Of a stretch of 39,557 nt of DNA, positions 1 to 39,557 are shown piece after piece. The stretch lies in the IMG/VR virus record IMGVR_UViG_3300019776_000415, positions 1 to 39,557 of that record. The stretch is one strand, 5' to 3'. Source of the DNA: a virus. The stretch's first letter is position 1. Each line of letters begins with the position of its first letter. A program made the translations under genes and the position numbers. Under the pieces are notes generated by a model. It had not been told where the DNA came from and made no database searches. It saw nothing but the letters and a program-made list of their open reading frames with translations.

Positions 1-591
1 CGCCCGGTGGCAGTGCTGTTTGCGCGGACAGACAGCGTTTACAAGACGCTGCCGGGCTGCGAGGTGTACGACATGGAGCGCGACGCGCGAACCTATGACG
101 GCCCGCATCCGGTGGTGGCTCACCCGCCGTGCAGAAGCTGGGGCAGGCTGCGCGCGTTCGCAAAGCCGCGCGCCGATGAGCGAAACCTCGCGCGCCTGGC
201 CGTAGCGCTGGTGCGAGAACTCGGAGGCGTGCTTGAGCACCCGGCGGGCTCGACGCTCTGGCCAGCGCAGACGCTGCCGAAGCCTGGTCAGCGCGACCAG
301 TGGGGCGGTTGGACACTGGCCGCGCCTCAGAAGTGGTGGGGCCACCGAGCCGAGAAGGCGACATGGTTCTACATCGTCGGCGTTGAACCGAACGAGCTGC
401 CGGCGCTGCCGCTTGTGCTGGGGCAGGCTGAGGGCCGCATTCGCCTCGACATGCGCCGCGCTGACGGAACGCACATCCGGCGCGGCGACCCAGACTATGT
501 GCCGCGTCTGAGCGCTGCGGAGAACGAGCACACGCCGCCCGAACTGGCCGAGTGGCTTGTAGCCGTAGCGCGCAAGGCGCATAACACGTAG
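1..591 (+). CDS. Cassette-5 protein, PPC-motif phage protein (5' end lies at 39384/39456)
   Basis: Across the circular junction the frame is open from an ATG at 39456, which lies in an attC R' box, or from an ATG at 39384 in the attC loop; without the junction it begins at GTG 7. The protein has about 198 residues from 39456. It contains HPPCRSWGR and LEHPAGSTLWP. The PPC motif recalls motif IV of cytosine-C5 methyltransferases, but I see no SAM-binding motif, so enzymatic function is unproven. Proteins of this look are common unannotated phage genes. It is the only gene of cassette 5, and its TAG stop (589-591) abuts the closing core site. Same strand as the early operon. Confidence 0.85.
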   Translation, partial: RPVAVLFARTDSVYKTLPGCEVYDMERDARTYDGPHPVVAHPPCRSWGRLRAFAKPRADERNLARLAVALVRELGGVLEHPAGSTLWPAQTLPKPGQRDQWGGWTLAAPQKWWGHRAEKATWFYIVGVEPNELPALPLVLGQAEGRIRLDMRRADGTHIRRGDPDYVPRLSAAENEHTPPELAEWLVAVARKAHNT

Positions 592-597
592 TTATGC
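579..597 (+). other. Degenerate attC-like site F (R'' and R' only)
   Basis: GCATAAC (579-585), five bases, then GTTATGC (591-597), a perfect 7-bp inverted repeat. R'' exactly complements the R' at the 5' end of its own cassette (GTTATGC, 39453-39459), as expected for the attC of cassette 5. The L boxes and loop of a normal attC are absent, so this looks like a collapsed site or one end of an insertion. The stop codon of the upstream gene and the start codon of the downstream gene both overlap the R' box. Confidence 0.6.
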
Positions 598-938: not shown

Positions 939-1279
939 TGTTAAAAGCGGACCAAGTAGCCGCGTCGTTGGGTGTAAGCCGTCGCATGGTCTATGACCTG
1001 CACAAAGACGGCAAGTTGCGCGGGTATCGCTTCGGCGCTGCTCTGCGCTTTGATCCTGCTGACGTTGAGGCGTACAAGAGGCTATGTCTATCCGATGGGA
1101 CGCAAGGAACAAGCGGTGGCGGTTTGAGTTCAACCGCGTCATTGAAGGTCGCCGTCACCGGGTTAGCCGACTTCTTCCGAGGGGTTGGAGTCAAGCCCAA
1201 GCTGACGCCTTCGACCGCAAGGAAGGGGCGCGACTCTATGCCGTTGCGTGTGGTATCGAGCGAAGCGACCCACTCATAG
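938..1279 (+). CDS. Excisionase-like helix-turn-helix protein (Xis/AlpA type)
   Basis: Residues 1-50 form a MerR/AlpA-type HTH_17 domain: LKADQVAASLGVSRRMVYDLHKDGKLRGYRFGAA followed by LRFDPADVEAYK. Such proteins bind att DNA and set the direction of the integrase. The position directly before int fits. The recognisable domain ends near residue 52 (base 1093), yet the frame stays open to 1279 and overlaps the integrase start by 196 bp in another frame. The last 60 residues, rich in Ser, Thr and Gly, have no recognisable fold. Start ATG 938 overlaps the previous stop. Confidence 0.75.
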   Translation: MLKADQVAASLGVSRRMVYDLHKDGKLRGYRFGAALRFDPADVEAYKRLCLSDGTQGTSGGGLSSTASLKVAVTGLADFFRGVGVKPKLTPSTARKGRDSMPLRVVSSEATHS

Positions 1280-2046
1280 ACGAAGCGGTGATGCGCTACC
1301 TGCAAGACCGCTCCGACATGAAGTCGCACAAGGCGACGGCCGAACACTTAGCCGCGATTGCATGGGCCTACGCTGGAAAGCACATGAGCCAGCTTGCGGA
1401 AGTGGCCGCATCTGTCACAAAGGCAGAACTTGCGCGGGGCATGGCGCCCGCGACGGTGCGGAACCGGCTGGCCTGCCTCAAGGCCGCATGTCGGCATGCG
1501 TGGAGGCGTCACGGACTGACAGAGGCCGACCCAACCGGGCGCATGGAACTGCCGACCGTCAGGAACGAGAAACAGGCGTACTACAGCAGAGGGGAGATGT
1601 TGAGGGCGTGCAGGCAGTGTGTGAACTGGCAGACGCAGGTGGCCGCGCGTGTAGCGTTCTACAGCGGGATGAGACTAGGGGAGTTGATGGTGGCCGAGCC
1701 AAGCGGAGATGTGATCCTGCTAGCTGACTCAAAGAACGGTGAGGCGCGAGCAATCCCGGCGCACCCGAAGATTCGTCACCTCCTGCGCTTCCTGCCGCTG
1801 CCTGGCCCGAAGATCACGATTCAGCGGGCTTGGGCAAGGGCGTGCCGTGCAGCTGGTATTGAAGGGAAGACCTTCCACGATCTGCGCCACTCGGCAGCAT
1901 CAGAGATGGTCAATGCTGGTGTGCCAGAGGCGACGATTGGCGCGGTGCTAGGCCACAGGGACCGCAGAAGCACCAAGCGCTACACGCATCTACGGCTTCC
2001 GACGCTTGCCGAGGCAGTCAAGACCATCGGGAAGAAGGCCGCATGA
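1084..2046 (+). CDS. int: Tyrosine recombinase, phage integrase
   Basis: 320 residues. The N-terminal arm-type region (MSIRWDARNKRWRFEFNRV, DFDRKE-like motif near 42-47) is typical of proteobacterial prophage integrases. A SAM-like core-binding domain covers about 60-150 and the catalytic domain 160-315. Catalytic residues seen: R197 (SGMRLGEL), K217 (DSKNGEAR), H265 and R268 (HDLRH), H291 (LGHRD) and nucleophile Y300 (KRYTHL). It should integrate and, with the upstream Xis, excise the genome at the nearby tRNA-Ser region. It lacks the extra helix domain that marks integron IntI. It is last in the rightward early operon. Confidence 0.95.
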   Translation: MSIRWDARNKRWRFEFNRVIEGRRHRVSRLLPRGWSQAQADAFDRKEGARLYAVACGIERSDPLIDEAVMRYLQDRSDMKSHKATAEHLAAIAWAYAGKHMSQLAEVAASVTKAELARGMAPATVRNRLACLKAACRHAWRRHGLTEADPTGRMELPTVRNEKQAYYSRGEMLRACRQCVNWQTQVAARVAFYSGMRLGELMVAEPSGDVILLADSKNGEARAIPAHPKIRHLLRFLPLPGPKITIQRAWARACRAAGIEGKTFHDLRHSAASEMVNAGVPEATIGAVLGHRDRRSTKRYTHLRLPTLAEAVKTIGKKAA

Positions 2047-2122: not shown

Positions 2123-2569
2123 ATGGCTGACATCAAGTTTATCCTGCGCGACGCTGGCGTTGTGTCGCGATTCTGGGCAAAAGTCTTGCCCGCTGGCGCA
2201 GATGAGTGCTGGCTTTGGAGCGACGCCCCCGACGAATACGGATACGGGCGCCTCGGAATCAAACTTGGAGACGTTCGCGCGAACGTCCGTTCTCACCGCA
2301 TCGCCGCCGCCCTCTTCCTCAAGGAATACAGCGACTCGCTGGTTGTGCGTCATAGCTGCGACAACCCGCTGTGTTGCAACCCGCGCCACTTGGCGATGGG
2401 TACCCAAGCCGAGAACATCGCAGACCGTGAGGCACGTGGGCGCGGCAACCATGCCGCAAAGCTGCCAAACCTGCTTGCCATTGCCGAAGCTAGACGGCAA
2501 AAACGTGCGCACACACAAGGAAACGAAGCGGGCAACTTGGCGGAACGGGTGGGATTCGAACCCACGTAA
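2123..2569 (+). CDS. HNH endonuclease
   Basis: 148 residues with Shine-Dalgarno GAGAGGAT ahead of ATG 2123. The HNH_3-type zinc motif is clear: CWLW (C29), RSHRIAAALF (about 57-66), then HSCDNPLCCNPRHL (H77, C79, C84, N86, H89). The following TQAENIADREARGR is also typical of this family of phage and homing-type nucleases. The last ten residues (AERVGFEPT) are read antisense through the 3' end of the tRNA-Ser gene, so the natural C-terminus may have been replaced by insertion beside the tRNA. It lies between int and the tRNA and could be a homing-type passenger. Confidence 0.85.
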   Translation: MADIKFILRDAGVVSRFWAKVLPAGADECWLWSDAPDEYGYGRLGIKLGDVRANVRSHRIAAALFLKEYSDSLVVRHSCDNPLCCNPRHLAMGTQAENIADREARGRGNHAAKLPNLLAIAEARRQKRAHTQGNEAGNLAERVGFEPT

Positions 2570-2628
2570 GTGCATGACACTTAACGGGATTTCGAGTCCC
2601 GCGCCTTCAGCCACTCGGCCACCGTTCC
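2538..2628 (-). tRNA. tRNA-Ser(CGA)
   Basis: A complete 91-nt class II tRNA on the minus strand. The acceptor GGAACGG pairs with CCGTTCC, the D arm is normal, the anticodon stem CGGGA/TCCCG carries loop CTCGAAA (anticodon CGA), there is a long variable arm, the T arm GTGGG-TTCGAAT-CCCAC is perfect, and CCA is encoded. It lies downstream of int, where lambdoid phages keep attP. A full tRNA rather than only a 3' fragment suggests the phage carries an intact replacement copy. Confidence 0.93.
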
Positions 2629-4902: not shown

Positions 4903-5177
4903 TACTTCCTCTTCCTCGGCGCTTTGGCCGGTTCAAGCACGGTCATGGAGCGGATCATTCCTCGCGGGATTTGGTCTCTCGTGGCTACCGATTCGGGGTG
5001 CCATGCTTGGGTGAGCAAGACTCCCTCTTCGGTGGCAGAAAGAAGAAACCCCACCTGTCTGACGAGGTGGGGTTCGTATTTGTGGTCCTTGTTCTCGGCC
5101 CAAACGCCTTGATCGATGCTCTTCGCGTCCTCCCAGACGACAGCAACGATGGGCGGGGGCTCAGGCGTTCCATTCAT
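4902..5177 (-). CDS. Conserved phage protein of unknown function
   Basis: 91 residues: an acidic N-terminal part with PPPIVAVVWEDAKSIDQGVW, then VRQVGFLLSATEEGVLLTQA, IPRGMIRSMTVLEPA and a basic tail KAPRKRK. The layout (W-x-D-A, then hxxVGFLL, then IPRGMI) recalls small conserved phage proteins found near terminase or lysis genes. Bases 5047-5074 inside the gene form a strong terminator-like hairpin on this strand. It overlaps the 45-residue gene upstream by 17 bp. Confidence 0.75.
   Translation of the reverse strand: MNGTPEPPPIVAVVWEDAKSIDQGVWAENKDHKYEPHLVRQVGFLLSATEEGVLLTQAWHPESVATRDQIPRGMIRSMTVLEPAKAPRKRK
5041..5074 (-). terminator. Intrinsic-terminator-like hairpin inside a coding region
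   Basis: A perfect 10-bp inverted repeat, AACCCCACCT (5047-5056) and AGGTGGGGTT (5065-5074), with an 8-base loop, followed on the minus strand by TTTCTTTCTT. It lies in codons 35-44 of the gene at 4902-5177, so terminating here would truncate that message and reduce expression of the metallophosphoesterase downstream. Confidence 0.65.
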
Positions 5178-5298
5178 CTTTGACCCATCCCCAAGTCAAA
5201 TCAACACACTTGATCGCCGCGAGGCAGACCATGACGGCTACACCCAGCACCGAGACGATGACGATGCCGGGGATAGTGACTAGCTTGCGGAGCTTCAT
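5161..5298 (-). CDS. Small membrane protein of the lysis cassette
   Basis: A 45-residue gene, MKLRKLVTIPGIVIVSVLGV then AVMVCLAAIKCVDLTWGWVKDEWNA. Residues 8-29 form one transmembrane helix with a positive N-terminus and a mostly acidic C-terminus. Its ATG overlaps the Rz stop as ATGA and its end overlaps the next gene, so it fits exactly in the operon with no gap. Role unknown; it could modulate lysis or exclusion. Confidence 0.65.
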   Translation of the reverse strand: MKLRKLVTIPGIVIVSVLGVAVMVCLAAIKCVDLTWGWVKDEWNA

Positions 5299-5726
5299 TG
5301 CGTCACTCCGTAGGCTTCGTTGCACGTCGTTCCCGCTCTATGGCTGTCGTCAGCGAATTGAGCAAGGTCTTCAAGGCGTCGGAGCAACTCGGCTGACACC
5401 AGCTCGGTTTCGGAGGCTGGAGCGCTTCCTGCGGGAGCGGCGGGGCGGATGACAAGACCTGAACCCGCGACGGCGCCGCGCAGCCGCTCAGCAGCAGCAG
5501 CGAGATTGCGGCCACTCTCCCGTGCCGCATTGGACGCCGCACGGCTGCGCGCAGCGATTCGTGAAAGCTCATCGGAGTTCTCCTTGAACCGCTCTTGCGC
5601 GGCCTGCTGGTGGGCCTGCTCGCATTCCCTCCGTGCTTCGTTCCTGACTGAGTTCAGGAACAGATGCACGCCGAGCAGAACAGCCGCTGCGCCGCCGAGG
5701 GTGGCAGCGAGCCGCAGGGGGATCAC
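5295..5726 (-). CDS. Rz: Rz-like i-spanin
   Basis: 143 residues: an N-terminal signal anchor (LRLAATLGGAAAVLLGVHLFL, about 4-24), then a long alanine/arginine-rich periplasmic helix (RRECEQAHQQAAQERFKENSDELSRIAARSRAASNAARESGRNLAAAAERLRG). Spanins connect the inner and outer membranes and fuse them in the last step of lysis. The position after the endolysin and the presence of a nested lipoprotein gene in another frame are diagnostic. Confidence 0.88.
   Translation of the reverse strand: MIPLRLAATLGGAAAVLLGVHLFLNSVRNEARRECEQAHQQAAQERFKENSDELSRIAARSRAASNAARESGRNLAAAAERLRGAVAGSGLVIRPAAPAGSAPASETELVSAELLRRLEDLAQFADDSHRAGTTCNEAYGVTQ
5303..5530 (-). CDS. Rz1: Rz1-like o-spanin lipoprotein
   Basis: 75 residues from ATG 5530: MRHGRVAAISLLLLSGCAAP, a short lipoprotein signal with lipobox LLSGC (Cys17), then a Pro-rich mature part (PPLPQEALQPPKPSW). 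It is nested wholly inside Rz in another frame, the lambda-type arrangement. An upstream in-frame ATG at 5572 would spoil the signal peptide, so 5530 is chosen. Confidence 0.87.
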   Translation of the reverse strand: MRHGRVAAISLLLLSGCAAPSRVQVLSSAPPLPQEALQPPKPSWCQPSCSDALKTLLNSLTTAIERERRATKPTE

Positions 5727-6901: not shown

Positions 6902-8979
6902 AGCGCAGCCGTAGAAATGCCAACAACAGTCACAGCCTCTGTGCCTGCGCCCACGTTCGTGGCGATGATCTTGTAGAGGCGACACTGATTCGTCGCGACG
7001 GTCGTCGTTCCGCTCAGGGTCACACCCGAGCCGGCGACCAGCGTCATCGTCGAACCAGAGGTGTTTCGGTAGTACCAGTCATAGCCCGAGCCAGCCTCAC
7101 AGCCTGGAATGGCCGCGACGATTGCCGCGGCGGTGGGCGTTGTGTCGTTGAACGGGCCGGCCGGACCTGTGCGCGTGAAGACCGCGCTCATGAAGTTCCC
7201 GATGGAAATCGTCGAGCTGCCGGCGGTGTTGTCGGAGCCCTGAGGGTTCTTGTAGTAGAGGCGGCCGGAAAGGTTCGTGTCTCCGTGCCCGCTGCCGATC
7301 TTGGCCGAGTTTGCCAGCTTCGTCGTCGCGTTGGCACCCAAAGCCATCGCGTTGTTCTTCGGAGCGCCGTCAGCGCCGACCGAGGCATTGAAGCCGATGG
7401 CCGTGCCGTTCTCACCGTAGACCACCGCCTGGGAGCCGACCATGGTCCCGAAGCTGTAGGTGTAGGTGATGTTGACGTTTGCGTTCAGGTAGCCGGCCAA
7501 CGCTCCCACGTAGGTGTTCTGGCTGCCTCGGCCGTTCATGCCAGCCTGAGAGCCCCACACCGTGTTGCCGGAGGTCGTCAGGATGTTGTAGCCCGCTTGC
7601 CAGCCGCCCAGCGTGTTGTCGGAGCCGGCCGTGCTCTGCATGCCAGAGTGATAGCCCACCCCGGTGTTCCGAACCCCGACCGTGTTAGCGCTCAAGGACT
7701 TGTAGCCGAGCGCGGTCAGCTGATCCCCGAGGGTGTTGTACTTGCCGGCCGCGTAGCCGTAGAACGTGTTCCGACTGGTCGTCGTGTAGCGGCCGGCGAA
7801 GGCGCCCACGGCCGTGTTCTCGATGCCGTCGATGTTGCCTTGCAGCGAACGCGGACCCATTGCCAGGTTCCACGTCGCCGAGGCGCTTGGCAATGCCATC
7901 GTCTGACGATCGCCGATGGCGATCACGCCCGCGTTGAACCGGCCCCACTTCAGACCGTAGGGGATTCTCATCCCAGCGTCGTCGGTCGGGACGACCAGCG
8001 TCGAGAGGGGCAGTTCGTCCGAGACCTCGATGACCGACACCGAGTCAATTGAACCGGCCCACACGGTGTCGGTCACTACGCCGAACGTTCCAGCGCCACC
8101 CGTACCACTCAAGTGCGGGAAGGAGAAGGTGTTGGTTCCGACATCGCAGACGTAGTAGCCGGTGTCATCCAGCATCGTCACACCGCCGAATTGGAGATCG
8201 ACGCCGCCGCGAGTGGTGGTTGTGAGCGTGATGCTTAGCAAGTAGTGGCGATACGCCGAAAGCGTGACCGACTGCGTAGCGCTTCCCACCGCCCCCGCTG
8301 TGTGCGCGATGGCGTTAGCGCTGTAGGTGAAGTTCGAGAGCGTCCAGCCGGTGGCCGAGCCAGTGAAGGTGCCGTTCGTGAGCTTCTCGGTCGAGCCGAC
8401 CGTGGCAACGTCCACGCGATTGCGAGCGCCAAACGCGGGGCCGAGACTGCCGTACTGATAGGCGGATTTGCTTGGGATCGTGAACAGGCCAGCGGCAGTC
8501 GTCGCGTTTGCAAGTGCGGCGGTGTCGTCGGTGGTCCCGTCGCATGCCGCCCCCAAATCGCCCTTGACGTTTAGCGGCTCCGCTTCAGTGCGGGCGTGCT
8601 GCGTCGTGGCAACTGAGCCGGTGGCGGTGCGCTTGACGCCAATCAGCGCATCGCCCTTTGATACATCGGTGGTGTTGGCAAAGTCTGCAAAGGAGGCGTC
8701 TCCCGCACCATAGATGTCGTCCCACTCGTCAATCAGTACATCGGATTCTGTGAGCAACCGGAGCCGATACTCGGTGCCGGATGTCAACCACAGCTCAGGC
8801 TGAACCTTGCCGGCAGAGTCAAGAATGATCGGGTTGGTGTGTGGGATCGTGCCCGCTTGGTCTTGATAGGAAGTGACGGGCGTTGTCGTGCCCGAGGCAT
8901 ACGTCCAGAGCTTGCAGAGAGCGGCAACGGTGCCGTCGTTCTTGAGGAACTGCGGCCCGAGTGGGCTGAGAAGTGCCAC
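6898..8979 (-). CDS. Tail fibre / receptor-binding protein
   Basis: 693 residues from GTG 8979 (Shine-Dalgarno AGGGG). The N-terminal part (MALLSPLGPQFLKNDGTVAALCKLWTYASGTTTPVTSYQDQAG) is a conserved phage-fibre attachment domain. Residues about 370-560 contain Asn/Gly-rich repeats (NTAVGAFAG, NTFYGYAAGKYNT, NTGVGYHSGMQST, NTLGGWQAGYN, NTYVGALAGYLN) like the beta-prism or trimeric-adhesin repeats of fibres and YadA-type head domains. The C-terminus is beta-rich (GVTLSGTTTVATNQCRLYKIIATNVGAG). It should trimerise and bind the host surface. A terminator-like hairpin lies just upstream. Confidence 0.87.
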   Translation of the reverse strand: MALLSPLGPQFLKNDGTVAALCKLWTYASGTTTPVTSYQDQAGTIPHTNPIILDSAGKVQPELWLTSGTEYRLRLLTESDVLIDEWDDIYGAGDASFADFANTTDVSKGDALIGVKRTATGSVATTQHARTEAEPLNVKGDLGAACDGTTDDTAALANATTAAGLFTIPSKSAYQYGSLGPAFGARNRVDVATVGSTEKLTNGTFTGSATGWTLSNFTYSANAIAHTAGAVGSATQSVTLSAYRHYLLSITLTTTTRGGVDLQFGGVTMLDDTGYYVCDVGTNTFSFPHLSGTGGAGTFGVVTDTVWAGSIDSVSVIEVSDELPLSTLVVPTDDAGMRIPYGLKWGRFNAGVIAIGDRQTMALPSASATWNLAMGPRSLQGNIDGIENTAVGAFAGRYTTTSRNTFYGYAAGKYNTLGDQLTALGYKSLSANTVGVRNTGVGYHSGMQSTAGSDNTLGGWQAGYNILTTSGNTVWGSQAGMNGRGSQNTYVGALAGYLNANVNITYTYSFGTMVGSQAVVYGENGTAIGFNASVGADGAPKNNAMALGANATTKLANSAKIGSGHGDTNLSGRLYYKNPQGSDNTAGSSTISIGNFMSAVFTRTGPAGPFNDTTPTAAAIVAAIPGCEAGSGYDWYYRNTSGSTMTLVAGSGVTLSGTTTVATNQCRLYKIIATNVGAGTEAVTVVGISTAAL

Positions 8980-8990
8980 GGATACCCCTA

Positions 8991-9019
8991 GAAAGAAGAA
9001 AGCCGCCTCGATGGGCGGC
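8991..9019 (-). terminator. Intrinsic-terminator-like hairpin upstream of the tail fibre
   Basis: On the minus strand GCCGCC, loop CATCGA, GGCGGC, then TTTCTTCTTTC. It lies between the ejection gene at 9159 and the tail-fibre start at 8979, inside the late unit, so late transcription must read through it. Confidence 0.65.
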
Positions 9020-9032
9020 CTACAATGAGTAG

Positions 9033-9218
9033 ATGCAAACGACTTGGCTTTGGGCGCTTCTGCTGAAGCCCTTCGCCGCGCTGATCTTGTTTGGCTTTAT
9101 CTGCCTGCCTGCGCGGCTAGCAGTTCAGCGTTGGATGCCTGACAGTTGGCTCAAGCGCCTACTGCTGCGCCAGATAGTTCGCAATCCCGGTTCCCGAAAG
9201 AACACCAACGGGAAGTGA
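9033..9218 (+). CDS. Small membrane protein on the opposite strand
   Basis: 61 residues: MQTTWLWALLLKPFAALILF and GFICLPARLAVQRWMPDSWL, with a hydrophobic helix over residues 5-25 and a basic C-terminus (KRLLLRQIVRN). The composition (LLLKPFAALILFGFICLPAR) is protein-like rather than random. It is the only likely plus-strand gene inside the late block and overlaps the end of the gene at 9159 by 60 bp. No clear promoter or Shine-Dalgarno is seen. It could be a small moron or an artefact. Confidence 0.45.
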   Translation: MQTTWLWALLLKPFAALILFGFICLPARLAVQRWMPDSWLKRLLLRQIVRNPGSRKNTNGK

Positions 9219-10724
9219 CACCGGCTCTTGCGCCAGCAGGCGGGCCAGTACGTTGGGTTGAGTCACAGACCCGGCGTTAGCCAAAGCGTTGCGCTGCATC
9301 GGACCCGACAAAAGAGCAGCGCGGGCAACCGGGCGCGCAACGAGGCCGGCGGCAGCCAATGGGTTACCACCGCTCCCAACAAGCCCAAGACCAGCAGCGC
9401 CGAAGTCCAGCGGGGACAGGGCTTTGGGAGATTCTTTAAGGGCTTGTGTAGCCTTCGGGAACGAAAGCCCAGCTTGGGCGGCGGTCTTGATGTCACCAGA
9501 CAGCGGCTTTCCCTTTGCCAACTCACGCGCCAACACTTGCGCAGATACATCGCCGGTCTCGGCGTTCAGCGCCTTCTGCACCGTGTAGGTCTTGGCGATC
9601 AGTTGGCGAGCATCTCGGAATCCACTGAGAAGGTCAGCCGGAGCGCCGATCTTGGTCAGGTGCTCATCGATTGCCCCCTCTAGTGCCGTTGCAGCATCCT
9701 TGAGCGCGCGACCGGCATCCTTGTTGCCTTGGGCGTAGGCTGAATCCGCAGCGCCACGAAGTTCCTTGATCTTTGCAACCGCGCTAGCTGCATCAAACTG
9801 CGGGCTTCGCAGAGCGTCAATATCAGCAATGATCGGATTCGGCTTAGCGTTCGGGAAGCCTTGGGCCGCTTTCTTGAAGGGCGCAACGATCTTGTCCAGC
9901 GCGTCGGCATAGGTTTGGCTCGGCTGAATCGTTCCGGTGTTGGAGACGGCCTCATATGCCTGCCCCGCCTTGCCGCGAATGGCGTTTAGCGTGTCAACCG
10001 TCAGCGGAGCATCAGGAGCCACACCGAGCGCCTGTTTGGCAAGCCGGTTGGTAACGGCCTGGTTCTGCTGGCTGGCCTGCTGCGCGGTCTTGATCTTCCC
10101 CGACAAGCCCGAGACAGCCTCAACCAGTTTGCTGTTGCTAAGGTCAGCCGGTGGGATGACGTAGCCCGCATCCATGGCCTCTTTGGCTGCGGCAACCTTC
10201 TGCGCGTTCTGGCCTTGAGCCGCCGTGTTTTGAGCGAGCTTGTTGGAGACATAAGCACCGGCCTTGTCGCCAAGAAACTTGCCCGCCGCACCACCAGCGC
10301 CACCAAGGCCGATGTTCGCTAGCGTCTCGGTTGACGACGCGGACGGCTGAAGAGCGCCAGTAACGGCGCCGATGGTCGATGCGCCAGCGTAGGTGTTGGC
10401 TCCCGGAATCATCGCTGTAGGCGCAAGCATCGCCACATTGCCAGCCACGTTGCCGAGCTGCGCTGCGCCGGTCTTCATCAGCGGCGCGTCAAATTTGCGC
10501 GACTCGGCTACATCATCACGAGACACTAGGCCAAGCCACTGACCAGCCCCGCGCCCGAGGTCTACAACAGCCTTTCCTGCTCCAGCAGCGAACTTGTCAA
10601 AGGTGCTCATGCCTGAAGTCGGGTCAAGCATCTGCTTGAAGCGGGCTTGAGACTCGGGGGACTCTCCGCGCTGCTGATACGCGGCCCACGGACCAGACTG
10701 GTAGCTTTCCCACGGACCCGCCAT
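9159..10724 (-). CDS. Ejection-type internal virion protein
   Basis: 521 residues. N-terminus MAGPWESYQSGPWAAYQQR is a short repeated motif typical of phage DNA-transfer proteins. It has Gly/Ala-rich hydrophobic stretches (GNVAGNVAMLAPTAMIPGANTYAGASTIGAVTGAL, about 90-125; GLGGAGGAAGKFLG) able to insert in membranes, and long Ala/Gln/Lys helices. It ends before a run of LLAQEP. P22-like phages have several such proteins ejected with DNA to form a trans-envelope channel. Its ATG overlaps the TAA of the next gene upstream. Confidence 0.75.
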   Translation of the reverse strand: MAGPWESYQSGPWAAYQQRGESPESQARFKQMLDPTSGMSTFDKFAAGAGKAVVDLGRGAGQWLGLVSRDDVAESRKFDAPLMKTGAAQLGNVAGNVAMLAPTAMIPGANTYAGASTIGAVTGALQPSASSTETLANIGLGGAGGAAGKFLGDKAGAYVSNKLAQNTAAQGQNAQKVAAAKEAMDAGYVIPPADLSNSKLVEAVSGLSGKIKTAQQASQQNQAVTNRLAKQALGVAPDAPLTVDTLNAIRGKAGQAYEAVSNTGTIQPSQTYADALDKIVAPFKKAAQGFPNAKPNPIIADIDALRSPQFDAASAVAKIKELRGAADSAYAQGNKDAGRALKDAATALEGAIDEHLTKIGAPADLLSGFRDARQLIAKTYTVQKALNAETGDVSAQVLARELAKGKPLSGDIKTAAQAGLSFPKATQALKESPKALSPLDFGAAGLGLVGSGGNPLAAAGLVARPVARAALLSGPMQRNALANAGSVTQPNVLARLLAQEPVSLPVGVLSGTGIANYLAQQ

Positions 10725-12085
10725 TACAGCTTCTCCCAGCTTTTCGGATCGGCGGGATTGCCGCCCTTGAACCTATATCCGTCCTGAACTGCTCCGACAG
10801 CGGGGCCGCCTTGCGGCTTTGCTTGCGGACCCGCGTTAAGAACACGCTCAATGTCGCCCGCGGCTCTTCCCGCACGAATCCTCGCAGTTTCAATGACCTG
10901 AGCCAGTCGCTCGCGCTTGTCTTGAACCGTCTTTTCGTCGTCGCTAATCTGCGGAAAGTACGATTTGGAAAGCCCCTTCAGTTGCTCCTTGGTGTAGGCG
11001 GCACCAGTGGCAAGAGTAAGCGCGGCATCAAGCGCATCAATTTGCGCGGTCTCAACGCGCTGACGATCAGCCGAGGTCAGCGTATTTGCCAATGGCTCGC
11101 CAACAAGAGGGATATTGCGAGTGATTTCGGCGGCCAACTCAGGCTTTGCGGCGCTGCTGTTGGTGCTGGTGACATCTCCAACGCGCTTGAGAGCGGCCTC
11201 CATTCGCACAGCCAAACCGGCGGAGCGACGCTCGTCCTCAGTCGGAGCGCCACCAGTCTTGGTAGCAGGATCGGCCGGACCACCCTTGATCGGGACAAGA
11301 CTCGGCTGCCCGTTTTCAATCGGCCCCCAGACATAGCCAGCAGGAGGCTTGCCCGCGCCCGCATTGTTGGCTTCACGCGCCCGCGCATCGGTCATGTTCT
11401 GCCCGCGAATCGTCACAGCACGGTTAGCCGCGTCGTTCGTTTGCCGATACTTGAACTCGTCTTGCTTCAGACCGAAGTCTTTCGCTTTCCACTGCTGATC
11501 CATCTGCTGAACGATGGACATGCCCGCAGCCTGTTGGGCTGCCTTCCACTGCGCGAAGCCCTCGGGGCCAGCGGCAGCGGCCTTGCGCATCTCGTCCAGC
11601 GCAGCGGCCCCGCTTTGCATGTCCAGAAGACCAGACTTCAAACCACCGGAAATCCAAGCCTCGGCCTGTTGCGGGTTCTGCACGCCGCCGAGAAGCTGAA
11701 GGTTCTGCGTGATCTTGTCTTGCTTCAGTTTGAACTCGGCCGCTTGGGCGTCGACCTTGTACTTCCCCGCTTGTGCCTGGTCTTTCTCAAGTCCGGCGCG
11801 CTTGATGTCAGGCTCAAGCATCTGCGTCTCAATCTTCGCCGCCTCCATCGGGAAGCTCTTGCGAAGAGCGCCCAAACCCTCCTGGGTGCGAACATCGTTG
11901 GTAGCGAGGAAGTCGCGCAAGCGGTTTTGCCGATCCATCTCGGCTTGACGCTGGGTCATCTCCAGTTGGCCGAGCTGGTTCTGACGCTGAAGCCCCTGAA
12001 GCTGCATTGCTTGCGCAAGCATGTTCAGTTGCGACGGCTGCTCAGGGGGCCGGAAGCCGAGGGCAATAGACGGGTCGATGGGCAT
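10724..12085 (-). CDS. Ejection-type protein, coiled-coil rich
   Basis: 453 residues. Residues 10-170 are almost continuous Gln/Leu/Lys/Ala helix (LNMLAQAMQLQGLQRQNQLGQLEMTQRQAEMDRQNRLRDFLATNDVRTQEGLGALRK). A Gly/Pro-rich middle has KPPAGYVWGPIENGQPSLVPIKGG. The C-terminal domain is about 280-430. This layout is common for the large internal proteins of podoviral virions. No enzymatic motif seen. Part of the contiguous ejection block 9159-13911. Confidence 0.72.
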   Translation of the reverse strand: MPIDPSIALGFRPPEQPSQLNMLAQAMQLQGLQRQNQLGQLEMTQRQAEMDRQNRLRDFLATNDVRTQEGLGALRKSFPMEAAKIETQMLEPDIKRAGLEKDQAQAGKYKVDAQAAEFKLKQDKITQNLQLLGGVQNPQQAEAWISGGLKSGLLDMQSGAAALDEMRKAAAAGPEGFAQWKAAQQAAGMSIVQQMDQQWKAKDFGLKQDEFKYRQTNDAANRAVTIRGQNMTDARAREANNAGAGKPPAGYVWGPIENGQPSLVPIKGGPADPATKTGGAPTEDERRSAGLAVRMEAALKRVGDVTSTNSSAAKPELAAEITRNIPLVGEPLANTLTSADRQRVETAQIDALDAALTLATGAAYTKEQLKGLSKSYFPQISDDEKTVQDKRERLAQVIETARIRAGRAAGDIERVLNAGPQAKPQGGPAVGAVQDGYRFKGGNPADPKSWEKL

Positions 12086-12086
12086 A

Positions 12087-12503
12087 TCAGAAGCGCTTGC
12101 GCATTTGGATTGCGAGGGTCGCGGGGGTCACGTTCTTGACGGGCGGAATCAACCCGGCGGCAATGGATCGGTCTTGATCCATCTTGTAGATCAGCTCAGG
12201 AAGAGCAAGGGCGTTCACTGGCTTCCCGTAGCCTGTCACACCACCAAGCATCAGCGCCGCTTGGAGCTTGTTGGGAATCACATCGGTCGCAAACTCTCGA
12301 CCAAAGTAGACAGAAGGGCGATCTACGCTGTTCTGATAGACGCCGCCCATCCATCCGCTCGGATGCTTGTAGCCTATGCCGGTGTTCGTCTCGTTGAACT
12401 TCTGATCTGTCCCGAAGTGCTTTGACAGAAAGCCGGATAGCAGTTCTCCCCGGTCAGTGTTGGCTGCTGCGGCGATGGCCTCGGCGAGCTTGTTCTGATC
12501 CAT
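12087..12503 (-). CDS. Virion-associated protein of unknown function
   Basis: 138 residues from ATG 12503 (MDQNKLAEAIAAAANTDRGELLSGFLSKHFG), one base after the upstream TGA with GGGGATGAG as Shine-Dalgarno; ATG 12521 is less likely because it overlaps the upstream coding end. Middle: NETNTGIGYKHPSGWMGGVYQNSVDRPSVYFGREF. It lies between two ejection-type genes, and similar small genes occur at this point in related phages. A glycosidase-like role is possible but I see no decisive motif. Confidence 0.65.
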   Translation of the reverse strand: MDQNKLAEAIAAAANTDRGELLSGFLSKHFGTDQKFNETNTGIGYKHPSGWMGGVYQNSVDRPSVYFGREFATDVIPNKLQAALMLGGVTGYGKPVNALALPELIYKMDQDRSIAAGLIPPVKNVTPATLAIQMRKRF

Positions 12504-12504
12504 C

Positions 12505-13911
12505 TCATCCCCCGAGCCCAAGTTGCTTCAAAAGTTGGTTCTCTTGGAAGTTCTTGAGGAAGTTGGAGATGCCGCCAGAGATGGCATTAGCCCCGCCGAT
12601 GTAGCCAGAAGCGGCGGCGTTACCAGCCCCAAGCATGTTGCTGCCAGCGGTGTTGCTGTAGTTCATGCCGGCGTTGGCAATCGTTCCCGCGCCGGTTTGC
12701 CCAAGGCCCGCCAAGTTGCCGTAGCGGTTCAGCGACTCGTTGAACTTGGTTTGCCCGTAGTCTTGGCCGAACTTCGTCAGCGCCTTGGCTTGTGCTCCAG
12801 ACAACCGCATGCCGCGAGCGGCCCCGGAGTTGTCATAGGCATTCATGCCCTGCTGAAGCCCAAACTGATAGCCCGGATCGCTCGTGATCGTGCCGGGGTT
12901 CTGGAGCAGCTTTTGATAGCCCTCCAGCCCGGTGTTGCGAGCGTTGAGCGCCGGCATGTTGTCAGTACGGGTGGTGTCGTACATGTATTTCGCAAGCGCA
13001 TTGGCCTCACGCGATGCGTTGATCTGCGCATCTGCGGCCTTGTTTGCCGCGTTGTAGCCAAGGTACGAATTCAGCAGGTTGCCGCCAAGGTTGAGCAGAC
13101 CACCAGAGCCGCCGGCAAAACTCTTGGCGCCCTCCAAGATGCTTCCGATAGTTCCCATAGTGCTTGCTGTGCTGCCGGCGCCAACTGCGCCAGCCGCACC
13201 GCCCGCGCCCGTCAGAGCGTTGCCGATGGTTGAGCCTTCAGACGCTCCGGTTGTGAGATAGGCAGTGATCGGATCGCTGGCAGCAGTCGCGGCGCCTCCG
13301 GTAAACGGAGAGGCACCAGAGGCATCCGCGAGGGTTGCCACCGTATCTCCATAGCCTGCGCCTTGGGCGTAGGCAGGAATACCCGTGCCAGCGATGCCGC
13401 CGGCCCCGGAAAGCATTGAGCCGGCAGTAGTGATGTTGTTGCCGGCGCCTAGAGCTGCATCGGCGGCCAAGTCCATGCCTGAAAGCCCACCAATCCCACC
13501 GGCACCACCGGCAATCGTGCTGCCAAGGTAACCCGCGGCACCTGCGCCAGCGGCAGCAAGGGCCAGGCCATCACGCCAGAACTCGGCGTCACTCACTCGG
13601 CGAGCGTCTTGCCAGTCTCCATTCCAAGACACCGAGCCATCAGGATTCACCGTCAGGCCCCGAGTCTGATACGCCATCGGATCGCCGCTCGGGTTCTCGC
13701 GGCGGATGGTGAAGCCAGAAGGGTTGTTGGGATCGCCCGTAGGGCTAATGGAGCCAAACCCACCAAGCCCGTATTGATCCAGGCCGGAGAACGCGTTAGA
13801 CCAAGTGTCAACACCCATGGGAGTTTCCTCGGGCGTCCACTTGGAGCGGTCAAACTTCACCCCGGGAATGGCGCTCCCGGGTTGCGTGGGCTTGAGAAGG
13901 GTCGTGAACAT
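12505..13911 (-). CDS. DNA-transfer (ejection) protein
   Basis: 468 residues. The central region (about 115-290) is very rich in Gly and Ala with hydrophobic segments (LALAAAGAGAAGYLGSTIAGGAGGIGG). The C-terminus contains PGYQFGLQQGMNAYDNSGAARGMRLSGAQAKALTKFGQDYGQTKFNESLNRYGNLAGLGQTGAG, a hallmark of phage DNA-transfer or internal core proteins. It should be packaged in the head and ejected with the DNA. It follows the tail-module genes in the P22-like order. Confidence 0.8.
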   Translation of the reverse strand: MFTTLLKPTQPGSAIPGVKFDRSKWTPEETPMGVDTWSNAFSGLDQYGLGGFGSISPTGDPNNPSGFTIRRENPSGDPMAYQTRGLTVNPDGSVSWNGDWQDARRVSDAEFWRDGLALAAAGAGAAGYLGSTIAGGAGGIGGLSGMDLAADAALGAGNNITTAGSMLSGAGGIAGTGIPAYAQGAGYGDTVATLADASGASPFTGGAATAASDPITAYLTTGASEGSTIGNALTGAGGAAGAVGAGSTASTMGTIGSILEGAKSFAGGSGGLLNLGGNLLNSYLGYNAANKAADAQINASREANALAKYMYDTTRTDNMPALNARNTGLEGYQKLLQNPGTITSDPGYQFGLQQGMNAYDNSGAARGMRLSGAQAKALTKFGQDYGQTKFNESLNRYGNLAGLGQTGAGTIANAGMNYSNTAGSNMLGAGNAAASGYIGGANAISGGISNFLKNFQENQLLKQLGLGG

Positions 13912-29561: not shown

Positions 29562-30416
29562 TCAAGCAACAGCTAGCGCGTGATCGCGCGGCACCTTGAA
29601 GCCGGCCGCCTTGGCGTGCCCACCGCCGCCGTACTGCTTCGCCACTTCGGACACGTCCACGCCTTCGTCGGTGGCGCGCAAGCCGAACACGCGGCCATCG
29701 GCCGTGTCCCAGTAGCAGGCCGCGAATGGCTCGCCCTGCGCCATCAGGTGCGCGGCATCACTCACAAGCGTGTAAGGAAGGCTGGCCACAGGCACGTCAT
29801 GGGCGCCGATCACCATGCGCCGCTTGCACACCGCCACCAGTTCGGCCACGTCCTTGTGATGCTTGCGCTCGATGGCAGCGCCCGCTGCGGTCATCTTCAG
29901 CAGTTCCACCTGGTCGGCGCTCATCAGCTTGTCCCACAGCTCGAAGCTGTATTCGTGCGAGAACACGAACGCCTGAATCTCGCGCGTGCCCGGCAGCTTG
30001 AAGCGCCACAGGTCGCGGTCCTCCACATGGCCCAGCAGCAACGGGCGGTCCTCGCCGGGAAACAGGTAGTCCCATGCCAGCGTGGCGCCGCTGCGGTTCA
30101 GGTCGGTGAAGTGCGCCAGTTGCTTCGGCTCGCCGGTCCACGAGTCCTGCATGAACAGCGGCTGCAAGTCTTCGATGGCGGTTTTGTGGTGGTCTATTAG
30201 GCACACGCTGTTGGCCTCGGCCAGCATGCGCTCGACCACCGCGCGCTTGTAGCTGAAGTCAACCAAGTACACGTCGCGCCCGCGCACGTCGGGCGGGTCT
30301 TGCTGATACACGCCCGCCACGTAGTCGGCACCGGCACCGTACTTCCTCCAGAAACACCAAGCAGCGCTGAAGCCGTCTGCACAGTTGCCGTGATAGATCA
30401 CAAGGGGTTGATTCAC
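29562..30416 (-). CDS. DHH-family phosphoesterase
   Basis: 284 residues. Motifs in order: HGNCADGFSAAW (about 9-20), VYLVDFSYKR (about 48-57), LIDHHKTA (the DHH motif, about 73-80), DLNRSGATLAW, GHVEDRDLW, and the C-terminal DHHA1 GGGGHAKAAGF. Such enzymes hydrolyse short oligonucleotides or nucleotide-type phosphoesters; a role in nucleotide turnover or removal of signalling nucleotides is possible. Its start overlaps the stop of the upstream gene as ATGA. Confidence 0.9.
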   Translation of the reverse strand: MNQPLVIYHGNCADGFSAAWCFWRKYGAGADYVAGVYQQDPPDVRGRDVYLVDFSYKRAVVERMLAEANSVCLIDHHKTAIEDLQPLFMQDSWTGEPKQLAHFTDLNRSGATLAWDYLFPGEDRPLLLGHVEDRDLWRFKLPGTREIQAFVFSHEYSFELWDKLMSADQVELLKMTAAGAAIERKHHKDVAELVAVCKRRMVIGAHDVPVASLPYTLVSDAAHLMAQGEPFAACYWDTADGRVFGLRATDEGVDVSEVAKQYGGGGHAKAAGFKVPRDHALAVA

Positions 30417-37167: not shown

Positions 37168-37460
37168 GCGGTGGAAGCATGAACTACCTGTACTCAAAAC
37201 TTGAGTACGACGCCACATTTCGCGAAGACACGCCGGAGCGCAAGGCGTTTGCAAAACACCTCCGACTCGTGGCGAAGGCGCTGCATGACATTGAATGGGT
37301 AGACAGTGGCGACTATGGCAAGGGGCAGGAAAGCGAAGCGATCCGAGCGTGCCTTAGCGAAGGCGCAGCACTAGAGGCCGCAATTGAGATTGCCAACGAA
37401 GCGGCAAAAACCCTTCGCGCCGAGCTAAACCGCGCCGTCATCAAAGCAACCGGCGAATGA
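37164..37460 (+). CDS. Hypothetical helical protein
   Basis: 98 residues: MSGGSMNYLYSKLEYDATFR then EDTPERKAFAKHLRLVAKALHDIEWVDSGDYGKGQESEAIRACL. The MSGGSMNYLYSKLE start with LVAKALHDIEWVDSGDYG-x-G-E is a well-known conserved small phage family of unknown role. An alternative start at MNYLY (37179) is possible. Overlaps NinB. Confidence 0.75.
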   Translation: MSGGSMNYLYSKLEYDATFREDTPERKAFAKHLRLVAKALHDIEWVDSGDYGKGQESEAIRACLSEGAALEAAIEIANEAAKTLRAELNRAVIKATGE

Positions 37461-37750
37461 CACAGAAGCTCCGCAGCGCCCAAGCAAACGCAAAGATGTG
37501 GGCCATGCTCAGAGACCTGTCACAGCAAGTGGTGTGGCACGGGCAGAAGCTGCACGAGAGCGACTGGAAAACGGTCATGACGGCAGCACTCAAGCGCTAC
37601 CGGATCGTGCCGGGGATAGACGGAGGTTTCGTGATGCTCGGATCAAGCACAAGCCGGATGACGGTGGCAGAGATGTGCGAGCTGATCGACCTGATAGAAG
37701 CATTCGGAGCGCAGCAAGGGGTGAGGTTTACTGCGCAGGAGTGTGTGTAA
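37457..37750 (+). CDS. ninB: NinB-like recombination protein, shortened
   Basis: 97 residues: MTQKLRSAQANAKMWAMLRD then LSQQVVWHGQKLHESDWKTVMTAALKRYRIVPGIDGGFVMLGSSTSRMTVAEMCELIDLIEAFGAQQGV. This matches the core of lambda NinB (a single-strand-binding recombination mediator, about 146 residues) but lacks the N-terminal arm and the final 15-20 residues. It ends five bases before the first attC-like site, so its 3' end may have been replaced by the cassette array. Confidence 0.87.
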   Translation: MTQKLRSAQANAKMWAMLRDLSQQVVWHGQKLHESDWKTVMTAALKRYRIVPGIDGGFVMLGSSTSRMTVAEMCELIDLIEAFGAQQGVRFTAQECV

Positions 37751-37755
37751 CGCAA

Positions 37756-37862
37756 AGCTAACTTGACCGCCACGGCGCGTGCGCCACAACAAAAGGAACA
37801 CGAGATGAACGATGCAGACAACCGGCCCGCCGTGGTGGGTCAAGTTGAGCGACCTGTTAGGC
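37756..37862 (+). other. attC-like site A
   Basis: AGCTAAC (37756-37762) to GTTAGGC (37856-37862), 107 bp. Stem: TTGACC (37763-37768) pairs with GGTCAA (37838-37843), and CCACGG with CCGTGG. The loop includes a Shine-Dalgarno (AAAGGAAC) and the ATG of cassette 1 at 37805. The 5' core is imperfect, so this may be where the array joined the phage backbone. Confidence 0.65.
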
Positions 37863-38122
37863 CGCTGGTTGATGCCTACGAGGACCATTGCGGCGTAGAG
37901 CGCGGGCGCTTTGACGACTGCACGCTGGCCGAGATGGAAGACGGTGCGGCGTTTGAAGGCTTCGATGAGTTCGCCGCCGGCTGGTGCGCAGCCATCGAAG
38001 CTGCGATCAAGGAAGCCGAGCGCCGGATCTATGCGCTTGACCACGGCGGCAACGAGTACCGCCGCCCGGCCGGCGCTGACGTGGTTGCGGCGGCACTGCG
38101 TGCCCTGCGGCCTAACGATTGA
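37805..38122 (+). CDS. Cassette-1 protein, unknown function
   Basis: 105 residues: MNDADNRPAVVGQVERPVRP then LVDAYEDHCGVERGRFDDCTLAEMEDGAAFEGFDEFAAGWCAAIEAAIKEAERRIYALDHG. Acidic, helical. The Shine-Dalgarno and first 17 codons lie inside attC A and the TGA lies in attC B, so the N-terminus (MNDADNRPAVVGQVERP) derives from the recombination site. No family recognised. Confidence 0.75.
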   Translation: MNDADNRPAVVGQVERPVRPLVDAYEDHCGVERGRFDDCTLAEMEDGAAFEGFDEFAAGWCAAIEAAIKEAERRIYALDHGGNEYRRPAGADVVAAALRALRPND

Positions 38123-38170
38123 GTTGTGGGGCGAGCCAAAGGCGAGTCCCGCACGAACGAATGGTTAGCC
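38110..38170 (+). other. attC-like site B
   Basis: GCCTAAC (38110-38116) to GTTAGCC (38164-38170), 61 bp. A hairpin is closed by GCC-AAA-GGC with GTGGGG/CCCGCAC above. R'' mismatches the adjacent R' at one base but is the exact complement of the R' of site A (GTTAGGC), as expected if R'' belongs to cassette 1. Confidence 0.75.
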
Positions 38171-38203
38171 GGCACCCACAACGCAGGCACGAAAGGAACT
38201 GTG

Positions 38204-38515
38204 ATGGCATTGAGCAAGTGGATACCGACCACCGACCTGCTGACGCTCCGGCGCATGGGCAAGCTCGGCGAAGAACTCGGCGAAGCGCAGTCCGTTGCGG
38301 CGCGCGTGGTCATCCAGGGAATCGACGAGGTGGACCCGGGCAGCGGCAAGGTGAACCGCCAGCGCCTGATGGACGAGCTGGCCGACGTGCAGGCGCAGAT
38401 CGGCTGCACCGTGCTGGCCTTCGGCTTGGACCAGGACTACATGGCGCGGCGCACCGCCGAGAAGATCCGCCAGATGCACGAGTGGGAAGCGATGTTCGGC
38501 ACTGATGCCGGCTAA
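38204..38515 (+). CDS. Cassette-2 protein, MazG-like nucleotide pyrophosphohydrolase
   Basis: 103 residues from ATG 38204 (Shine-Dalgarno AAAGGAAC): MALSKWIPTTDLLTLRRMGK then LGEELGEAQSVAARVVIQGI. EELGE (23-27) and DELADV (57-62) fit the metal-binding E-E-x-x-E ... D/E-x-x-D helices of the MazG/all-alpha NTP-PPase fold. It would hydrolyse NTPs or dNTPs, or an alarmone-type nucleotide, to the monophosphate. The TAA lies within R'' of site C. A longer frame into attC B is rejected for lack of a ribosome site. Confidence 0.78.
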   Translation: MALSKWIPTTDLLTLRRMGKLGEELGEAQSVAARVVIQGIDEVDPGSGKVNRQRLMDELADVQAQIGCTVLAFGLDQDYMARRTAEKIRQMHEWEAMFGTDAG

Positions 38516-38568
38516 CGTTCGAGTTGACGGGCCGCCGTAGGCGGTCCCGCTCGAACGAGGTGTTAGCC
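38510..38568 (+). other. attC-like site C
   Basis: GGCTAAC (38510-38516) to GTTAGCC (38562-38568), 59 bp, the clearest site. The cores are exact complements, GTTCGAG pairs with CTCGAAC, CGGG with CCCG, and CCGCC with GGCGG around GTA. A TTGA spacer on one arm and GAGGT on the other give the asymmetry typical of attC. Confidence 0.85.
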
Positions 38569-38593
38569 GGCCGCAACAACGAAGGCACAGACG

Positions 38594-38938
38594 ATGGCAC
38601 GCAGGATCAACGTAGACCAGTGGCTCAAGTCGGGCGATTACTTGCCAGAGCCGCTGCGCGATTTCCACGACCAGAAGGAAGTATTCAAGGCGATGCACGA
38701 AATAGTGCGCGAAGACCCAGCGGCGCTTGTGAGGCGGCCAGACTGGATCACAGGGCAGTGCTACGTGATCGACGTGTTCCTGTGGTTCATGGCGCGGCGC
38801 GGCTGGACGTTGCAGCGCACGCGCAGGGATGGCGACTTCCGCGACTTGGAGGCCGACGTGCGCGCGCAGACAGAGAAGCGTGACGCGGAATCAATGGCGA
38901 TGCTGGCCGATGCGCTGCGCGGGCAGCAAGCCGGCTAA
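38594..38938 (+). CDS. Cassette-3 protein, unknown function
   Basis: 114 residues: MARRINVDQWLKSGDYLPEP then LRDFHDQKEVFKAMHEIVREDPAALVRRPDWITGQCYVIDVFLWFMARRGWTLQRTRRDGDFRDLE. Charged, helical, with a central hydrophobic stretch YVIDVFLWFMARRGW (about 56-70) probably buried. No known family. The TAA overlaps R'' of site D. Confidence 0.78.
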   Translation: MARRINVDQWLKSGDYLPEPLRDFHDQKEVFKAMHEIVREDPAALVRRPDWITGQCYVIDVFLWFMARRGWTLQRTRRDGDFRDLEADVRAQTEKRDAESMAMLADALRGQQAG

Positions 38939-39037
38939 CGTGCAAGTTGAGCCGCCGACCAGGCCGGCGAAAGGACAGACAACATGAGCACCCAAGACAC
39001 AACGCCGGCGCAGGTCGGCTCGAATGACGGGTTAGGC
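38933..39037 (+). other. attC-like site D
   Basis: GGCTAAC (38933-38939) to GTTAGGC (39031-39037), 105 bp. GAGCC/GGCTC and GACC/GGTC pair with GCC bulged, then GCCGGCG/CGCCGGC. The loop carries a Shine-Dalgarno (AAAGGACA) and an ATG at 38984 that opens a short frame across R'. R'' mismatches this R' but complements the cassette-3 5' core exactly. Confidence 0.78.
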
Positions 39038-39064
39038 GTGTGGTGGATAAACGAGAAGGACTAG
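38984..39064 (+). CDS. 26-residue peptide read across attC D
   Basis: MSTQDTTPAQVGSNDGLGVW then WINEKD. Good Shine-Dalgarno (AAAGGACA) and TAG two bases before the next ATG (TAGGAATG), which suggests translational coupling into cassette 4. A leader peptide role is inferred only from position. Confidence 0.4.
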   Translation: MSTQDTTPAQVGSNDGLGVWWINEKD

Positions 39065-39066
39065 GA

Positions 39067-39387
39067 ATGCCGACCATTGCAACTGAGATGCAAACGAACG
39101 AGCCAGATACAGGCCGCGACCGCCTGGATATGGCGTACATCAACAGCCTGCCGCTACCGCTGTGGGATGGCGATTGGCCGGTGTATGACATCGAAGTGGA
39201 AACCGGGCTGTACCGCATCGACGTATGCGGCCTGCTGGAGGTGCGCCACATCGACCGCTGCTTCACGATGAAGGACAGCACCGGGAAGACCCATTACGTG
39301 GGCGACTTCGAGCTTGACCCGGAGCAGTGGGAGGAAAGAACGGCGCCGGACGGCAACACGCCTAACGTTCGAGGTGAGAGGCAATGA
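39067..39387 (+). CDS. Cassette-4 protein, unknown function
   Basis: 106 residues from ATG 39067 with Shine-Dalgarno GAGAAGGA: MPTIATEMQTNEPDTGRDRL then DMAYINSLPLPLWDGDWPVYDIEVETGLYRIDVCGLLEVRHIDRCFTMKDSTGKTHYVGDFELDPEQW. Beta-rich and acidic. GTG 39040 is a longer in-frame alternative. The stop falls 21 bases past R'' of site E, so the final residues (NVRGERQ) come from attC. No family recognised. Confidence 0.75.
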   Translation: MPTIATEMQTNEPDTGRDRLDMAYINSLPLPLWDGDWPVYDIEVETGLYRIDVCGLLEVRHIDRCFTMKDSTGKTHYVGDFELDPEQWEERTAPDGNTPNVRGERQ

Positions 39388-39459
39388 CCGGCTGCACGAT
39401 GACCGCTGACGCGCCGACCGACGAGGCCGGGCATTGTCCGCTCGACCGAGGGGTTATGC
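39360..39459 (+). other. attC-like site E
   Basis: GCCTAAC (39360-39366) to GTTATGC (39453-39459), 100 bp. TTCGAG/CTCGAC, GGCAATG/CATTGTC and CCGG/CCGG can pair. An ATG at 39384 (ATGA overlap with the cassette-4 stop, Shine-Dalgarno GAGGTGA) is in frame through R' with cassette 5, and the R' box itself contains a second ATG (39456). Confidence 0.72.
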
Positions 39460-39557
39460 GCCCGGTGGCAGTGCTGTTTGCGCGGACAGACAGCGTTTAC
39501 AAGACGCTGCCGGGCTGCGAGGTGTACGACATGGAGCGCGACGCGCGAACCTATGAC
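39384..39557 (+). CDS. 5' part of the cassette-5 gene (continues at base 1)
   Basis: The frame from ATG 39384 reads MTGCTMTADAPTDEAGHCPL then DRGVMRPVAVLFARTDSVYKTLPGCEVYDME and continues without a stop into bases 1-591. The first 24 residues are encoded by attC E of the preceding cassette, and the rest by cassette 5. Either 39384 (good ribosome site, coupled to the upstream stop) or 39456 could be the true start. Bases 39459-39557 duplicate 1-99. Confidence 0.7.
   Translation, partial: MTGCTMTADAPTDEAGHCPLDRGVMRPVAVLFARTDSVYKTLPGCEVYDMERDARTYD
39459..39557. repeat. Terminal 99-bp redundancy (identical to 1-99)
   Basis: An exact direct repeat of the first 99 bases. Its length equals a common assembly k-mer and the reading frame of cassette 5 is continuous over the junction, so it marks a circular molecule rather than a biological terminal repeat. 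Confidence 0.92.

Follow-up and report, generated by a model that had tools for sequence, protein, structure and literature searches.

A reverse-polarity integron cassette array in a temperate phage and related arrays in other phages

The DNA analyzed here, the 39,557-nucleotide record IMGVR_UViG_3300019776_000415 (the whole stretch is called the window below), is a temperate phage genome that carries, just downstream of ninB, an integron gene-cassette array with its attC sites on the minus strand and all five of its cassette genes on the plus strand, so the genes are antisense to attC. The same reversed layout is present in dozens of other phages, cassettes are gained, lost, and shared as units, and in some such phages an intI gene lies beside attI. 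We consider it very likely that the window phage carries a reversed integron platform without intI, shared by dozens of phages, on which an integron integrase (IntI) would act in trans.

Results

Genome of the window phage

The record is circular, as positions 1–99 are identical to 39459–39557 (a 99-bp end repeat), and the circle is 39458 bp. Pfam and PHROG matches identified a tyrosine integrase, an HTH repressor-type regulator, terminase, portal, and tail genes, in line with the temperate phage genome of the original prediction (Table 1). The array is bounded on one side by the stop codon of ninB, the phage gene directly 5′ of it, and on the other by a small gene that precedes int; the ninB stop codon lies inside the R′ box of attC A. 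The array had no megablast match among 50,697 phage records. The tyrosine recombinase at 1084..2046 was ruled out as an integron integrase (TIGR02249 score of 35 bits versus a cut-off of 265), and no match to TIGR02249 above the cut-off was present in the window, as had been claimed for a phage with no IntI of its own.

A complete tRNA-Ser(CGA) gene (window 2538–2628) follows the phage integrase gene at a distance of about 500 bp and is possibly linked to the attachment site of that integrase; when this tRNA was compared for host inference, the best match had 83% identity. A DHH phosphoesterase gene (window 29562–30416; PHROG 4771, E 2e-103) is found on the late-gene strand.

Table 1. Features of the array and adjoining genes in the window
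Feature	Position	Strand	Basis or remark
Site F, attI-like, GCATAAC-TACGT-GTTATGC	579..597	−	Short L/R site, canonical array start
attI-adjacent small basic protein, 111 aa	603..938	+	Homologs in attC-bearing contigs
Phage integrase, tyrosine recombinase	1084..2046	+	PHROG 1, E 4e-40
ninB (Orf-family recombination mediator)	37457..37750	+	Pfam NinB, E 6e-38; PHROG 72
attC A, distal (last) attC	37745..37862	−	CM 20.4 bits for 37804–37862; full extent from sequence
Cassette gene 1, 105 aa, function unassigned	37805..38122	+	Start codon inside attC A
attC B, 61 nt	38110..38170	−	CM 46.9 bits
Cassette gene 2, 103 aa, nucleoside triphosphate pyrophosphohydrolase-like	38204..38515	+	PHROG 4856, E 2.5e-14
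attC C, 59 nt	38510..38568	−	CM 53.3 bits, E 1.3e-10
Cassette gene 3, 114 aa, function unassigned	38594..38938	+	PHROG 15705, E 9e-30
attC D, 105 nt	38933..39037	−	CM 43.2 bits
26-codon leader ORF	38984..39064	+	Start in attC D loop
Cassette gene 4, 106 aa	39067..39387	+	ORF coordinates
attC E, 100 nt	39360..39459	−	CM 33.8 bits
Cassette gene 5, 221 aa, DNA cytosine methyltransferase-like fold	39384..39557 + 1..591 (across circle junction)	+	PHROG 12600, E 1e-79

Identity and polarity of the attC sites

Bacterial reference sites were taken from IntI-bearing loci supplied by 80 bacterial genome contigs, in which the position of intI fixed the direction of attC. A covariance model (CM) was trained on 24 of the bacterial sites (intI-adjacent sites only), and an independent two-arm PWM was trained on 70 bacterial attC sites. 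The CM search, which had been proposed as a check of attC identity, matched sites B, C, D, and E at 33.8–53.3 bits (E 1e-10 for site C) and site A weakly (E 0.0075), in every case on the minus strand only. Minus-strand PWM scores for B, C, D, and E were 32.5, 45.1, 46.0, and 42.7 bits, respectively, and the plus strand of the window contained just one 12-bit PWM match, located elsewhere. When 20 shuffled windows were analyzed as a control, the maximum PWM score was 16.4 bits, compared with 32–46 bits for B–E, and these controls together with the CM E-values reject the notion that the sites are chance hairpins. The folding z-scores of attC C were −5.9 and −6.3 on the two strands.

Based on these results, five of the six attC-like sites in the original prediction are attC (A–E), and the sixth, site F, is attI-like. 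The left boundary of attC A has been corrected to 37745; its R″ box (GCCTAAC) is at 37862–37856 and its R′ box (GTTACAC) at 37751–37745. The covariation of cores that had been described holds, in that the inner cores of each cassette are complementary even where R′ and R″ mismatch (B, D, and E). Within the window this complementarity spans 10–11 nt, past the 7-nt core, and over 327 viral cassettes the mean pairing was 8.6 nt, with 61% of cassettes pairing over at least 9 nt (5.4 nt and 6.6%, respectively, for shuffled pairs). Such covariation is symmetric and fits both polarities, and for this reason it could not reveal the polarity of the array. Because all matches are on the minus strand, the R′ and R″ labels needed to be swapped, and the earlier description of cassettes lying in the transcribed direction, each a gene followed by a downstream attC, is wrong. 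Instead, a mobile unit consists of an attC and the plus-strand gene that lies 3′ of it, and each gene travels with the attC at its 5′ side; the plus-strand assignment of genes 2, 3, and 5 is backed by their PHROG matches.

With at least two CM-recognized attC in one direction (four strong and one weak, all on the minus strand), the array qualifies as a CALIN. It does not have the usual, although not strictly defining, CALIN form of a sense gene with attC at its 3′ end, and we term it a variant CALIN because its genes are antisense. Lacking intI, the array falls short of a complete integron.

Antisense cassettes in other phages and in bacterial controls

In one of the 80 ninB loci, L051, ninB is followed downstream by a long array whose polarity is that of the window. 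Three pattern scans of IMG/VR gave about 150 stretches, which contain, after removal of redundancy, about 66 viral arrays of three or more attC; by codon score, 64 of these 66 are antisense, a count in which sense-type viral arrays (such as that of TJE1) are under-sampled because the contigs were retrieved by patterns that resemble the attC of the window. Viral cassettes were antisense in 222 cases and sense in 22 by codon score, and the corresponding numbers by ORF length were 133 and 33. As the codon score was unreliable on bacterial cassettes (17 sense, 10 antisense), orientation was also checked independently by ORF length and by homology. By ORF length, 27 intI-adjacent bacterial cassettes were sense and two were antisense. 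A second, independent set came from Xanthomonadales integrons, all with attC and intI in opposite directions, and contained 48 sense and nine antisense cassettes, which brings the combined bacterial controls to 75 sense and 11 antisense. Homology provides the strongest test of gene orientation: among the longest ORFs, 69 antisense ones match 32 PHROG and five Pfam families, and 66 sense ones match none.

When the CM was applied to 17 loci, 96 of its 97 matches were on the strand expected for the array, and there was no match in three relatives that lack attC. The attC-bearing contigs are phage at least in part, since 19 of 50 encode one particular terminase family, and others carry tail, portal, or tape-measure genes. 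Contig L165 has two separate arrays on opposite strands (220–1724 and 8642–12926), each of them with antisense genes.

Gain, loss, and sharing of cassettes

Two cassettes are shared by phages in which the neighboring cassettes differ: L229 and L230 have c28 in common (100% identity), and L264 and L274 have c2 (99.5%). In both, identity extends from the R′ box of the preceding attC to the R′ box of the cassette's own attC, which lies 5′ of the gene, and shared cassettes begin and end at G|TTRRRY. In addition, L173 is without two whole cassettes found in L168; the flanks of these are 99.7–100% identical, and the junctions fall at R′ boxes. Core pairing in the window and these events in other phages identify the cassette as an exchange unit with a G|TTRRRY boundary. 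L301 (4796–4891) and L312 (9999–10467) come from 99.9% identical phages, of which the former is without one cassette, and here the crossover fell on the R″ side rather than at the usual IntI cut; in a cassette difference between L250 and L191 the crossover is ambiguous. These two differences may reflect homologous recombination between attC copies.

Cassette genes and translation starts inside attC

The first ∼20 residues of gene 1 are encoded by attC A, and the N-terminal 24 amino acids are 79% identical to a stretch in the attC-bearing contig L297. The TAA stop codons of genes 2 and 3 are inside the cores of attC C and attC D, respectively. The stop codon of the leader ORF adjoins the start of gene 4 (TAG GA ATG), which had no match in Pfam or PHROG and whose own stop codon overlaps the start of gene 5 (ATGA) inside attC E. 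The extent of gene 5 has been corrected from the original prediction: it starts inside attC E at 39384, crosses the circle junction, and ends at 591. The AlphaFold model of its product (pLDDT 81.5) has C5 methyltransferases as its best PDB matches, weakly (TM about 0.4), and the family has an invariant P-C motif within an HPPC stretch. Homologs of gene 5 recur in many phage array contigs, with two copies in L230. The cargo of other arrays includes N6/N4 and C5 methyltransferases, queuine transferase (Tgt), RNA ligase, and an Acb2/Tad1 domain. The role of this cargo (DNA methyltransferases and similar proteins) is probably counter-defence and DNA modification.

Phage attC fall into length classes of about 57 nt and about 100 nt. 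Among the 214 long phage attC, 105 contain a Shine-Dalgarno (SD) sequence and a start codon whose frame stays open into the cassette; when the same test was performed on bacterial attC, none of 61 qualified, and on the opposite strand 4 of 400 did. In the window, SD and ATG are present in the attC A loop for gene 1, in the attC D loop for the 26-codon leader, and in attC E for gene 5.

attI-like sites and phage integron integrases

Site F has the short L/R form of attI sites at canonical array starts, and it is conserved among phages that have different first cassettes. An exact search of IMG/VR for the predicted empty site found none, with a pattern that kept GCAAAGCTAA and preceded the correction of the left boundary to the ninB stop codon; the empty site would read ...GTGTGTAA|CACGTAGTTATGCC... 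In the regions after ninB of 21 relatives, an F-like empty site was likewise not found.

Homologs of the attI-adjacent protein are encoded on L313, L314, L245, L262, L242, and L220, all of which are attC-bearing contigs (both matches from the collection scan included), and this family may be an array-linked regulator. Its structural model has a pLDDT of 80.5 and a pTM of 0.43. A search of 348 Xanthomonadales genomes for prophages with this gene returned none. Family members are about 110 aa long, have a basic helix at the N terminus and an RCDQH motif, and adjoin the attI-like site in the window, L313, and L314.

Full IntI proteins are encoded on seven viral contigs (412–428 bits). The six intI-bearing viral contigs that were examined have the canonical intI-attI-attC geometry with antisense genes, and tail, portal, or tape-measure genes were present on each of three that were checked. 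In a tree of 39 IntI, for which the bacterial sampling consisted of Xanthomonadales and relatives of IntI1, the six phage IntI included form one clade (support 99/96). That several phages encode an integron integrase suggests a version of the integron that is operated by phages themselves.

Discussion

Research on integrons has treated them as devices of bacteria and, more recently, as reservoirs of anti-phage defence genes. If the reading given here is true, a reversed phage integron with methyltransferases and other likely counter-defence genes is an opposing library, and phage cassettes offer a modular route to single-gene gain. The findings also bear on the long-standing question of the origin of cassettes and attC, as genes with a start codon within attC show how the two elements, attC and ORF, could arise already joined. 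For searches of phage attC, assuming sense cassettes or ignoring the strand leads to misread cassette boundaries.

In the model that we propose, the attI-like site at 579–597 comes first on the minus strand, with five cassettes after it, each ended by its attC, and all five genes are read from the plus strand with the upstream phage genes, toward attI. IntI, provided in trans by a co-infecting phage or a host integron, would act on the folded bottom strand of attC, which is here the coding strand, and would swap cassettes at attI or between attC sites. Cassette genes would be transcribed by readthrough from the phage operon and translated from starts in attC loops or by coupling. The reversal may be kept because captured cassettes would be co-directional with phage transcription while the intI-attI-attC geometry is unchanged. 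We also think it reasonably probable that the phage integron is a parallel to the bacterial one, with its own IntI clade and attI, a circulating pool of reverse-polarity cassettes, and attC that serve as ribosome-binding site and start; most phages would then have attI and cassettes only, borrow the integrase from a co-infecting phage or the host, and exchange DNA-modification and counter-defence genes by the cassette.

A different origin of the array, passive capture of a bacterial chromosomal integron fragment (a CALIN) with no phage-specific biology, is unlikely. The CM shows that the attC of the window resemble proteobacterial attC, the window is without intI, and there is a precedent in the bacterial integron fragments that are reported (PMC9892861) to be carried by Vibrio anguillarum phages. 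However, the predominance of sense genes in the bacterial controls is opposite to the orientation of nearly all phage arrays, start codons inside attC were found in phages only, near-identical phages differ in cassettes, and the phage IntI form a distinct clade. This opposite orientation bears as well on the original prediction that a host integron integrase would supply the cassettes: such an integrase is possible, but the sampled bacterial cassettes are mostly sense, and a phage cassette pool with IntI in trans, from another phage or from the host, fits better than host-supplied cassettes.

We regard as very improbable the polarity first proposed for this array, with sense cassettes, attC 3′ of each gene, and supply by a host IntI. 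Core complementarity is compatible with it, stop codons do lie within cores, and the breakpoint between L301 and L312 falls on the R″ side, but all CM matches and all strong PWM matches fall on the minus strand, c28 and c2 are shared together with the attC 5′ of the gene, and only under minus-strand polarity are the intI-bearing phages canonical in their intI-attI-attC geometry. There is similarly little chance that the hairpins are RNA or operon elements for translation coupling or processing, that is, attC lookalikes without recombination. Several sites overlap stop codons and contain an SD sequence and a start codon, and must therefore have a role in mRNA as well; nevertheless, cassettes are gained, lost, and shared precisely at G|TTRRRY, attI-like sites and true IntI adjoin the arrays in several phages, and other phage attC have been shown to recombine with attI1 (PMC9892861).

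As the original prediction stated, attC in phage genomes have been reported before: Qi 2023 (PMC9892861) describes attC clusters without intI (CALINs) in MW202573, TJE1, and PH101, the first of which is related to the window phage (60% for TerL). Like the window, the phage CALINs in that report are without intI and have DNA methyltransferases among their cargo. There, the arrays of TJE1 and PH101 are called typical, and that of TJE1 is sense by our model; that of MW202573 is antisense like the window, an orientation that the available part of that report does not mention, nor does it mention attI-like array starts, start codons within attC, or a phage IntI clade. A search of the open PMC literature found no report of reversed phage cassettes, and within that literature the reversed architecture appears to be undescribed.

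Bacterial integrons, both mobile and sedentary chromosomal ones (class 1, Rhodocyclaceae, and Xanthomonadales), share with the phages the attC family recognized by the CM and the cut at G|TTRRRY, and with those phages that have intI they share the intI-attI-attC geometry. They differ from the phage arrays, in which genes are inverted within cassettes, transcription runs toward attI and intI, attC hold start codons, and intI is absent from the window and most contigs. In the atypical integrons of Treponema (PMC3607928), intI is co-directional with the cassette genes, as in the phage arrays; there, intI precedes the array and is read toward attI, whereas in the phages intI is where it usually is and is read in its usual direction, and it is the genes within the cassettes that are turned. 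Virus Rctr41k (KX853513, L176), which is not named in the accessible part of Qi et al., resembles the phage arrays in having a phage-type genome, a full IntI, and attC-like sites, but these sites are sense with the genes (by eye) and its IntI is outside the phage clade. In this virus, an IntI annotated only as xerD (TIGR02249 383 bits) at 4680–5678 is followed by the attC-like sites at 7900–9000.
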